Shown here in pieces: positions 60,026 through 62,849 of a stretch of 64,000 bases of DNA; within the stretch, counting starts at the first letter, position 1; each line of letters begins with the position of its first letter. The DNA is from Geminocystis herdmanii PCC 6308 (GTDB taxonomy: Bacteria > Cyanobacteriota > Cyanobacteriia > Cyanobacteriales > Cyanobacteriaceae): NCBI RefSeq assembly GCF_000332235.1, contig NZ_CM001775.1, positions 2,200,230-2,264,229 of the forward strand, given 5' to 3'. The position numbers and the translations under genes are program-made. Under the pieces are notes generated by a model. The model ran no database searches and was not told where the DNA came from. It saw only the letters and a program-made list of their open reading frames with translations.

Positions 60026-60064
60026 AATATTAATTTATTGCTTTGATTCATTTTGAGGTTTTTC

Positions 60065-60088
60065 TTTGGTGTTAATCGATACACCAAA
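60065..60088. terminator. Inverted repeat downstream of futB
   Basis: TTTGGTGT (60065-60072) and ACACCAAA (60081-60088) form an 8-bp stem with loop TAATCGAT, 40 bp past the futB stop and 17 bp before the TATAAT of the next unit. It could be the futB terminator or an operator of the riboswitch promoter. Confidence 0.45.
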
Positions 60089-60104
60089 ATTTCGATCGTT
60101 GCGT

Positions 60105-60110
60105 TATAAT
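60105..60110 (+). promoter_or_regulatory. -10 element of the riboswitch transcript
   Basis: A consensus TATAAT about 9 bp upstream of the riboswitch core. No good -35 is visible at the usual spacing (CACCAA at 60082-60087). Confidence 0.5.
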
Positions 60111-60118
60111 TAATTTTA

Positions 60119-60256
60119 CCCAGAGTCAGTCAGCCTAGTTCCAATAAAATGGAAGCGGGGGAACCAATTTAGGGGCTTATTTCTAAGATTTTACTAGAAA
60201 AGAACATCTCTCAGTTCTAGCCCGTCAGCTAACCTCGTAGGCATTGAGAGGAGACT
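60119..60256 (+). ncRNA. c-di-AMP riboswitch (ydaO-yuaA leader)
   Basis: Two conserved blocks of the ydaO-type aptamer are present in order: GCGGGGGAACCAAUUU-AGGGGCUU (60155-60178) and CCCGUCAGCUAACCUCGUAGGC with GAGAGGAG (60221-60252). The variable middle forms a hairpin region (TTACTAGAAAAGAACATCTC). The family normally switches transcription off when c-di-AMP is high and usually controls osmolyte or potassium transport, or cell-wall genes. Here it lies upstream of exoD and an ArsB/SLC13-type transporter. The distance to the exoD ATG is about 270 nt, longer than usual, and no clear terminator was picked out after the aptamer. Confidence 0.9.
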
Positions 60257-60527
60257 AAAGAATTAACATTTTCAATGTTACAAATTCATTTAGGTATTCC
60301 TATTGACCAAACTCTTCATTGATCATCCTTTTTGAATTTGAGGTTTATTTATTTAATGATTTATTTCTAACCATTATTTTTCATAAAAATTACTCATTTA
60401 TTTCTATTGTTTAGCTTGTCTAAAAATAGTTAAATTTTTAGGTATTTAAAATTATTTTAGCTTTTAATTATTTGTATTTAAAGGCTAGTTTTTAGTAGTC
60501 AATTATTAAACAAATAACCAATATTAA

Positions 60528-61136
60528 ATGAATTTAAGATTTTCTCAAGATTTAGAAGTTTTACTGAAACGTTTATTAGACAAACCTTTAAGTCTATCTG
60601 AAATTGTGAGTGAAACCTCAGAAAGAGGATTTAGTTTAGTACTTAGTATTTTAGCATTACCTTTTTTATTTCCTTTAATTCCCCCCGGTGTTTCTACTAT
60701 TTTAGGCAGTGGATGTTTATTTTTAGGTTTACAAATGGCTTTAGGAAGGACATCTCCTTGGCTACCTTCAAAAATAGCACATTTTCAATTTCCCCGAAAT
60801 TTTACCCGTCAAATTCTAAGTAATTTTAAAAGGATTAGCCGTAGATTAGAAAAAATGATTTCCCCCCGTTGGTTAAGTGTTTCAGAGAATAAATTTTTTT
60901 GGAAAATCAATGGATTTTGTATCGCTTGGTTAGCTTTTTTGTTGATGTTACCGATTCCTTTTACTAACCCTTTACCCGCAGGAATTATCTTACTTTTAGC
61001 TATCGCTACTTTAGAAGCTGATGGTTTATTAATTTGTATCGCTTATGTTTTAACTATTTTTGCTACTTTATTTTTTGCGTTTTTAGGCTACGCAATTTGG
61101 AAAACCCCAGAAATATTACCTTCTATTTTTCAATAA
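60528..61136 (+). CDS. Exopolysaccharide biosynthesis protein ExoD
   Basis: 202 residues, ExoD family. The conserved start is EVLLKRLLDKPLSLSEIVSETSERGFSLVLSILALPFLFPLIPPG (about 12-55), followed by a loop with SPWLPSKIA and two further hydrophobic stretches. It is an inner membrane protein of uncertain biochemical function, linked in rhizobia to exopolysaccharide and alkaline stress tolerance. It follows a c-di-AMP riboswitch and lies 37 bp upstream of an ion transporter gene, suggesting an osmotic or ionic stress operon. Confidence 0.9.
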   Translation: MNLRFSQDLEVLLKRLLDKPLSLSEIVSETSERGFSLVLSILALPFLFPLIPPGVSTILGSGCLFLGLQMALGRTSPWLPSKIAHFQFPRNFTRQILSNFKRISRRLEKMISPRWLSVSENKFFWKINGFCIAWLAFLLMLPIPFTNPLPAGIILLLAIATLEADGLLICIAYVLTIFATLFFAFLGYAIWKTPEILPSIFQ

Positions 61137-61173: not shown

Positions 61174-62511
61174 ATGACTGATTTATCTAGCATCATCGCC
61201 GCCTCTGTTTTTATTGTCGTTATCGGATTAATTATGTCCGAAAAATTACATTTGACGATCGCCGCTTTATTGGGTGCATTAATTCTAGTTTTTACCCATA
61301 CTTTAACTTTAACAGAAGCCATCGCCTATATTAGCAGAAGTCACGCTACTTTAGTTTTGTTTTTTGGCGTGATGGTATTAGTGAGAGCATTTGAACCTAC
61401 AAAAATATTTGAGTATTTAGCGACTCAAATGGTCTTAATTGCTAAAGGTAGAGGTAAAGTACTATTATTAGGTATAATTGGCATTACTACTCCTATTTGT
61501 GCAGTTCTACCAAACGCTACAACGGTAATGTTATTAGCTCCCTTAATTCCGCCCCTAGCGGAAGAAATTGGGGTTAATTTTGTGCCATTGCTGATATTAA
61601 TGGTTTTTGTGGCAAATAGTTCAGGGTTGATTACTTTGGTCGGTGATCCCGCTACTTTTATTGTGGGAGATGCGATTAACATGAGTTTTATTGACTATAT
61701 ACAAAGATTAAGTATCGGTGGAGTTATAGCGGTAATTAGCGTTGCTATTGCGACTCCTTTTCTATTTCGGGATGTTTGGAAAACAAAATTTACGCACCTT
61801 GAAGATTTACCTCACCCCAAGGTTAATCATCCTAGAATGTTAGCATTAGGGGCATTAATTATGGCTTTTGTGTTGATATTTTTCGTCATCGGGGATTCTT
61901 TGTCAACTCCGATTTCTCCTGCGGCGGTAGCTTTATTAGGGGCGGCATTGGCTTTATTGTTAGCTCATCATAGTAAAATTGATACGGTTCACAATATCCT
62001 CAAAGATGTAGATTGGAGTACTCTGATTTTTTTCATGTCTATTTTTGTTTTAATTGGAGGCTTAGAAAAAACAGGAGTTGTCAGCAGTTTATCGGGATTA
62101 TTGGCACTTGTTTTAGGTACAAATATTTTTTTAGGCTCGATCGTGCTAATTTTTGTAGTAGGACTATTATCTAGTGTTGTGCCTAATATTCCTTTAGTGG
62201 TGGCAATGGTACCCTTATTAAAAGAATATTTAGTTAATGTGGGGTTAGTTGGTACTGAAGTACTTGATCCTAATTTCGCAGGACAATTTCCTCCTGAAGT
62301 TTTACCCCTATTTTACGCTATGATGTTTGGTGCAACCTTGGGGGGAAATGGTACTTTAGTGGGGGCATCTTCTAATATTGTCGCCGCAGGTATTGCAGAA
62401 CAACACGGTAAAGAAATTTCTTTTCATACTTTCTTGAAATACGGATTGCCGATGATGGGAATACAATTAGTTGTTTCTGCTATTTATCTAGGACTATTTT
62501 TTGTATTTTAA
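61174..62511 (+). CDS. SLC13/ArsB/NhaD-like ion transporter
   Basis: 445 residues with about 11 to 12 hydrophobic helices. The family pattern is ALLGALILVFTHTLTLTEA near the start, then PNATTVMLLAPLIPPLAEEIGV (about 112-133), ANSSGLITLVGDPATFIVG, and the C-terminal PLFYAMMFGATLGGNGTLVGASSN. This is the ion transporter superfamily with ArsB and P-protein members; the ion could be arsenite, Na+ or a carboxylate. The riboswitch upstream of the operon favours an osmotic or ionic role. ATG start. Confidence 0.9.
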   Translation: MTDLSSIIAASVFIVVIGLIMSEKLHLTIAALLGALILVFTHTLTLTEAIAYISRSHATLVLFFGVMVLVRAFEPTKIFEYLATQMVLIAKGRGKVLLLGIIGITTPICAVLPNATTVMLLAPLIPPLAEEIGVNFVPLLILMVFVANSSGLITLVGDPATFIVGDAINMSFIDYIQRLSIGGVIAVISVAIATPFLFRDVWKTKFTHLEDLPHPKVNHPRMLALGALIMAFVLIFFVIGDSLSTPISPAAVALLGAALALLLAHHSKIDTVHNILKDVDWSTLIFFMSIFVLIGGLEKTGVVSSLSGLLALVLGTNIFLGSIVLIFVVGLLSSVVPNIPLVVAMVPLLKEYLVNVGLVGTEVLDPNFAGQFPPEVLPLFYAMMFGATLGGNGTLVGASSNIVAAGIAEQHGKEISFHTFLKYGLPMMGIQLVVSAIYLGLFFVF

Positions 62512-62591
62512 ATATCTTCTCTCCAATTTTCCTGAGTTACTTATAATGGTTAGTCAATAAGAGTAAAATCAGAAATATGAGAGGAGGAAAC

Positions 62592-62849
62592 ATGAATTTT
62601 AGTGTCAAAAATGGTGCTACTAAAAAGGGTACAAAAGGAGTTCCAGATTTGTTAGATCCAAATATACTTAAATCAGCTAGAGATATTTACCTAACCTATT
62701 GTTATTTTCATGTGAAATTAGTTAAACCTCCTATTGGAGTAGCTATCGATAGAACTACCCATAGAGGACAATTATTATTTACCAAAAAACCGATTTTATT
62801 ACCTTGGGAAAATTTTATCCCCATTAATCAAATTGAATCAGAAGTTTAA
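62592..62849 (+). CDS. Conserved small hypothetical protein
   Basis: 85 residues from the ATG at 62592. This start is chosen because a strong Shine-Dalgarno AGGAGG (62582-62587) sits just upstream; the earlier ATG at 62577 overlaps it. The protein has no signal or membrane segment. A mixed alpha/beta sequence (LLDPNILKSARDIYLTYCYFHVKLVKPPIGVAIDRTTHRGQLLFTKKPI) gives no known motif to me. Confidence 0.55.
   Translation: MNFSVKNGATKKGTKGVPDLLDPNILKSARDIYLTYCYFHVKLVKPPIGVAIDRTTHRGQLLFTKKPILLPWENFIPINQIESEV

Follow-up and report, generated by a model that had tools for sequence, protein, structure and literature searches.

A c-di-AMP riboswitch ahead of exoD and a transporter gene in Geminocystis herdmanii PCC 6308: a probable ion-homeostasis operon with exoD as a recurrent partner

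In the cyanobacterium Geminocystis herdmanii PCC 6308, what looks like a c-di-AMP riboswitch precedes exoD, a gene whose name evokes exopolysaccharide, and a transporter gene on the same strand. The arrangement lies in a 64,000-nt stretch of contig NZ_CM001775.1 (positions 2,200,230 to 2,264,229; this whole stretch is referred to as the window, and coordinates below are counted from its first nucleotide). It raises the questions of whether the RNA is a true member of its class, which of the two genes it serves, and what exoD might contribute to a c-di-AMP regulon.

A cmscan search of the window against 4227 families placed a match to RF00379 (c-di-AMP riboswitch, ydaO/yuaA leader) at 60122-60258 on the + strand, with 80 bits against a gathering score of 38 (E 5.8e-17) and an alignment covering model positions 1-134 of 134. 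The preliminary description had assigned the RNA to this class on two aptamer blocks and had proposed such a covariance search; both blocks are exact, GGGGGAACC from 60157 and CCCGTCAGCTAACCTCGTAGGC from 60221, and the assignment was confirmed. This match is the sole copy found in the genome. Among 47 cyanobacterial copies (43 distinct) the aptamer hairpin and pseudoknot covary, with 97.9% of cells paired as against 26-53% when the pairing partners were slid as a control, and with both-side changes in nine of 11 pairs, a level reached in none of 500 shuffles. For the pseudoknot alone, formed by CUCUCA (60208-60213, +) and UGAGAG (60245-60250, +), 97.3% of cells are paired and five of six pairs show both-side changes in the 43 distinct copies. 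The aptamer occupies the 5' leader position of a same-strand gene, the exoD ATG being 269 nt downstream, and a diadenylate cyclase is encoded in the same genome (one PF02457 (DAC) match, E 1.2e-38). Judged by its sequence, the element is a genuine riboswitch rather than a chance resemblance, and falls within the known c-di-AMP class as an ordinary representative. It shares with that class the full-length match, the core motifs, the pseudoknot and a location 5' of a transport-related operon on the same strand, and differs in having exoD as the first gene, an 87-nt element of a local family after the aptamer, and no detected intrinsic terminator.

The two genes named in the preliminary description, exoD and an ArsB/SLC13-type transporter, were both recovered by Pfam. 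The first (60528-61136, +) encodes a 202-aa, all-helical, probably polytopic membrane protein that matches PF06055 at 194.6 bits (cut-off 23.8). Its AlphaFold model has a mean pLDDT of 88.3; no solved structure resembled it by Foldseek at E <= 0.001 (best E 0.81), and a profile search against solved structures returned one chain at E 0.31, taken as chance. The second gene (61174-62511, +) encodes a 445-aa transporter of the CitMHS/ArsB fold, with 198 bits to PF03600 (CitMHS, cut-off 31.9) and 61.5 bits to PF02040 (ArsB, cut-off 22.2), and is 69-88% identical to the transporters in the riboswitch loci of relatives. It was not classed as an arsenite pump or an NhaD antiporter, as it missed all of the NCBIfam cut-offs for ArsB (94.7 of 760, 93.9 of 457 and 85.6 of 415), NhaD (57.4 of 577) and DASS (84.1 of 198.6). 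Since 37 nt separate exoD from the transporter gene and both lie on the same strand, a single transcript is likely, and the operon likely extends beyond 61136, the end of exoD at which the preliminary description had stopped, to at least 62511. A 90-aa open reading frame without a Pfam match follows at 62577-62849, and its relatives are found behind the transporter in three genomes of the same genus (G001, G003, G004).

The c-di-AMP riboswitches usually act as OFF switches. We consider it probable that a ydaO-class riboswitch heads an exoD-transporter operon here and that this operon forms an ion/osmotic-homeostasis module, likely under an OFF switch. Transcription would probably start just 5' of the aptamer from a possible -10 element, TATAAT (60105-60110, +); TATAAT, TACAAT or TAAAAT stands 5' of the aptamer in 11 of 17 riboswitch loci, the window's included, which is a raw count in AT-rich DNA. 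c-di-AMP supplied by the cell's diadenylate cyclase would bind the aptamer and stabilise the pseudoknot, and the 87-nt element would relay the state of the aptamer, so that exoD and the transporter are expressed or not, binding most likely turning them off. Within the resulting module, the transporter would be the usual target and exoD a recurrent partner that has been gained, lost and shuffled.

Evidence for the transporter as the usual target came from 56 loci (L001-L056), which are the best-scoring cyanobacterial places and not a random draw. The first gene behind the riboswitch encodes a CitMHS/ArsB transporter in 25 of them, an ABC permease in 21 and Usp in three, and rarer first genes are exoD (one, the window), a P-type ATPase (one) and a glycosyltransferase (one); first genes were picked mechanically, and the choice is surely wrong in some loci, for example in L053, where it lies more than 1 kb away. 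The last of these genes, in L052, belongs to glycosyltransferase family 4 and possibly acts in osmolyte synthesis. Among other arrangements, L012 and G021:C1:2137082-2141715 show a riboswitch followed by a P-type ATPase and then, judging by position, a transporter, and a 6-kb stretch, G033:C17:32931-38872, carries three c-di-AMP riboswitches, all on the same strand. The link between this kind of transporter and the c-di-AMP riboswitch is already known. In Synechocystis, such a riboswitch is said to control slr0753 (PMC10117731), whose product is described as a putative chloride exporter or a probable transport protein (PMC10117731, PMC5386190). The evidence given for chloride is genetic and consists of three suppressor mutations in slr0753 (PMC9896922), and one salt-stress proteome did not detect any of three candidate chloride exporters, including Slr0753 (PMC8670252). 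By these descriptions, the leader of slr0753 in Synechocystis sp. PCC 6803 resembles that of the window in being a cyanobacterial c-di-AMP riboswitch before a transporter gene (PMC10117731, PMC5386190), and the window differs in having exoD between the two. A more distant parallel is the riboswitch of kdpFABC in Bacillus thuringiensis, which likewise controls ion transport but belongs to a Firmicute and to a potassium uptake system (PMC6488665). Transport and osmotic genes had already been linked to the class as a whole (PMC3766115; Nelson 2013 as cited in PMC5986932). The view of the preliminary description that the target genes are atypical holds for exoD, first in one of 56 loci, and not for the transporter, the commonest first gene with slr0753 as a precedent.

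These counts also suit the best-surviving rival reading, in which exoD is a passenger, inserted or retained between aptamer and transporter in this species, and the riboswitch serves the transporter only. We regard this as a real possibility that falls short of being probable. The close relatives speak for it. exoD is absent between aptamer and transporter in two genomes of the same genus (G001, G004), and riboswitch and transporter likewise stand together without exoD in six further genomes of the family (G006, G008, G011, G012, G013, G014). G003, also of the same genus, retains a remnant of exoD, 48 residues long and with an in-frame stop, immediately 5' of the transporter; a search of the 6 kb around that transporter gave no riboswitch at E <= 0.05. 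With a broken exoD beside an intact transporter and no riboswitch detected in the vicinity, this locus (L078, G003:C1:1492500-1498500) resembles a case of loss in nature. A fourth congeneric genome (G002) yielded no riboswitch and only fragments of the transporter. An intact close exoD occurs in one of 15 family genomes, that of the window itself; the search of the others returned distant paralogues or, in G003, the remnant, and G004 and G014 yielded nothing. This patchy presence indicates that exoD comes and goes.

Against the passenger reading stands the recurrence of exoD in riboswitch-led operons elsewhere. In 388 Cyanobacteriia genomes, 109 close-clade exoD matches with E values up to 6.9e-33 were counted, that of the window among them, and 108 were examined; a separate scan of 32 loci, five of them with a riboswitch, met two genomes already covered (L210 being G108 and L220 being G246) and added three further genomes. 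Combined, the 108 neighbourhoods and the separate scan place exoD inside riboswitch-led operons in ten genomes and four layouts. Outside the window, exoD comes first after the riboswitch in two other genomes, G325 (L083) and Cyanothece sp. BG0011 (L212), both with the order riboswitch-exoD-P-type ATPase-SLC13 type-transporter. These two resemble the window in the distance of about 275-350 nt between riboswitch and exoD and in the same kind of transporter within the run (split over two open reading frames in L212), and differ from it by the P-type ATPase and SLC13-type gene between exoD and transporter. A second layout, riboswitch-ABC permease, substrate-binding protein, ATPase-exoD, was found in G130, G324, G333 (with untidy gene calls), G108 and G169. 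The order is riboswitch-transporter-exoD in Cyanobacteria bacterium UBA8803 and riboswitch-transporter-exoD-lipid kinase-P-type ATPase in UBA11370. The riboswitch-led ABC importer operons that end in exoD are the loci L086, L087, L147, L160 and L162.

The preliminary description had suggested a survey of exoD leaders in other cyanobacteria. Riboswitch-led exoD operons do recur, and in 97 of the 108 close exoD neighbourhoods, some of which are cut short by contig ends, the 5 kb around exoD gave no riboswitch. The remaining 11 (L083, L084, L086, L087, L091, L093, L094, L147, L160, L162 and the window) compare with 0 of 40 distant paralogues (taken from 41 distant exoD matches listed; Fisher p 0.036, window included). 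A riboswitch-led same-strand run holds exoD in seven of the 108. In the other four of the 11, exoD lies outside the operon of the riboswitch, with the gene upstream on the same strand in L084 and on the opposite strand in L091, L093 and L094; larger stretches have a riboswitch 6-12 kb from exoD in L085, L088, L089, L090 and L095. Thirteen of the 108 neighbourhoods had been preselected for a noticed proximity, and they belong to the full list. The riboswitch enrichment near close-clade exoD is modest. A tree was built from 74 ExoD proteins, 69 of them selected out of 104 loci in which the gene caller had clustered exoD and five taken from the separate scan. On it, the riboswitch-led label needs eight changes, of which at least four are forced by well-supported branches, which argues against a single origin, and 34 of 500 shuffles scored as low. 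The tree thus suggests several gains or losses of the riboswitch-led state with weak clustering, the latter being more in keeping with a passenger. Ten genomes with four sets of partners, several independent changes and the lack of a riboswitch at any of the 40 distant paralogues count the other way, and exoD as a recurrent member of the regulon remains the preferred reading.

A different objection concerns the leader. The gap between the end of the aptamer and exoD measures 269 nt, in agreement with the long leader of about 270 nt noted earlier. Its first part, 60257-60343 (+), is the 87-nt element, a possible expression platform with a mean pairwise identity of 0.79 in five family members, where the aptamer has 0.81; the 150 nt after it fall to 0.51 in the same five. 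The rest, up to the exoD start codon (60344-60527, +), is AT-rich and poorly conserved. The exoD promoter might lie within these 184 nt, in which case the aptamer would govern just a short leader RNA, or hardly anything. We judge this unlikely. The length and AT-richness of the leader would allow for it, as would Ncr1680, a small RNA that in Synechocystis builds up 5' of slr0753 (PMC5386190). However, a crude two-hexamer scan of 60026-60560 gave no promoter-like site on the + strand, and 60344-60527 contains neither a terminator-like nor a + strand promoter-like site. By the definition of an 'actuaton' in PMC5386190, moreover, the gene behind such a small RNA has no start site of its own and is made by read-through. 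From its position, Ncr1680 may be the riboswitch leader of slr0753, and together with read-through this would fit attenuation.

The post-aptamer element can be aligned in twelve family copies, of which L008 and L009 precede an ABC-permease-like first gene, and its outline is common to two exoD-first leaders of another family. RNAalifold predicted a helix at 60286-60294/60327-60336, which was extended by hand to 60282/60339; in the proposed outer helix (60282-60288/60333-60339 and 60292-60294/60327-60329, +), 86.7% of cells are paired and both-side changes affect one of ten pairs, in two of 12 sequences, so that covariation supports the putative helix weakly. No intrinsic terminator was found behind the aptamer of the window, and its leader is not unusually stable (z 0.15 and -0.48). 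Of 34 cyanobacterial leaders, 12 carry terminator-like sites, where mononucleotide shuffling gives 3.7 on average; the 34 are a hand-picked part of the 56 and include the window's own, which has no such site. For a candidate switch pairing between GAGGAG of the aptamer and a downstream CUCUUC, inspection by eye showed nearly invariant columns, the pair being broken by one change in three of 12 relatives. The idea that the 87-nt element encodes a leader peptide was also considered and rejected, as the reading frame, inspected by eye, is not preserved in relatives.

The label of exoD as an exopolysaccharide gene, on which the preliminary description had relied, rests on the name. That c-di-AMP controls exopolysaccharide synthesis through exoD is improbable, slightly more so than a separate exoD promoter. 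The family name and the reduced EPS I of Sinorhizobium meliloti exoD mutants (PMC3233446) fit this idea, but the same mutants are alkali-sensitive, and the role of ExoD has been termed unknown or hard to explain (PMC3233446, PMC1403797). The genes around cyanobacterial exoD, named by Pfam and NCBIfam from one or two representatives each, encode transport proteins in seven of nine cases scanned. Among the 104 clustered loci, the same-strand gene just 5' of exoD is a P-type ATPase in 22, a lipid kinase (PF00781/PF19279) in 18, an ABC ATPase in five, an SLC13-type gene in three and something else in 34. The second commonest of these, the lipid kinase, does not speak for ion transport, and as a frequent close-clade neighbour that is no transporter it can be counted on the side of exopolysaccharide. 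In L098-L191, this DAGK/YegS-type kinase stands just upstream in 18 of 104, and no riboswitch was found in those stretches. The same neighbour would also allow for a membrane-lipid role of exoD.

In 94 neighbourhoods, that is, the 108 less the preselected loci and the window, compared with 40 controls, the P-type ATPase occurs in 22 (against 0), the lipid kinase in 20 (0), an AAA-like gene below the Pfam cut-off in 16 (0) and an ABC binding protein in 13 (0); the ABC permease (five), CorA (two), the transporter (one) and SLC13 (one) show no significant enrichment. The link between exoD and the P-type ATPase is therefore robust, and the association of the transporter with exoD hinges on the loci that were preselected. 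The ATPase of G325 passes the NCBIfam cut-off for PMCA-type calcium ATPases (522.1 against 507.05) and fails those of the PMR1 and SERCA types, and the ABC permease and ATPase of G130 (L086) pass the nitrate-type cut-offs. Because cation pumps and transporters adjoin exoD, the evidence favours ion or pH homeostasis over exopolysaccharide as the better guess for its function. More tentatively, it can be proposed that, in this cyanobacterial clade, ExoD belongs to the membrane machinery of ion/pH homeostasis under c-di-AMP control and is no exopolysaccharide protein; that its partners are an SLC13/TrkA_C transporter, an slr0753-like transporter and a P-type cation ATPase; that it was drawn into riboswitch-led operons several times; and that the conserved post-aptamer element is an expression platform which is specific to the lineage and lacks an intrinsic terminator.

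The remaining alternative, an aptamer that has decayed or senses something else and is deaf to c-di-AMP, is very improbable given the full-length 80-bit match, the intact core motifs and pseudoknot, and the diadenylate cyclase encoded in the genome.

A ydaO-class riboswitch at the head of an exoD-transporter operon thus remains the reading that we prefer, and its new element is a modest regulon link between exoD and the c-di-AMP riboswitch. In the literature searched, no co-mention of ydaO and exoD was found, none of the listed matches to c-di-AMP and exoD bore a title on cyanobacteria or ExoD, and the cyanobacterial c-di-AMP literature covered by the term search does not mention exoD; the gene table of Nelson 2013 lies outside that search, and priority for the link is uncertain. 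The recurrence of exoD under a riboswitch with an osmotic and ion-linked ligand provides a concrete, testable hypothesis for ExoD, namely a part in ion homeostasis, which matches the alkali sensitivity of the rhizobial mutants. If it is true, the c-di-AMP regulon of cyanobacteria would be wider than the transporter discussed in PMC10117731, and the return of exoD in several lineages hints that this gene may serve the control of salt and ions and not the making of slime.
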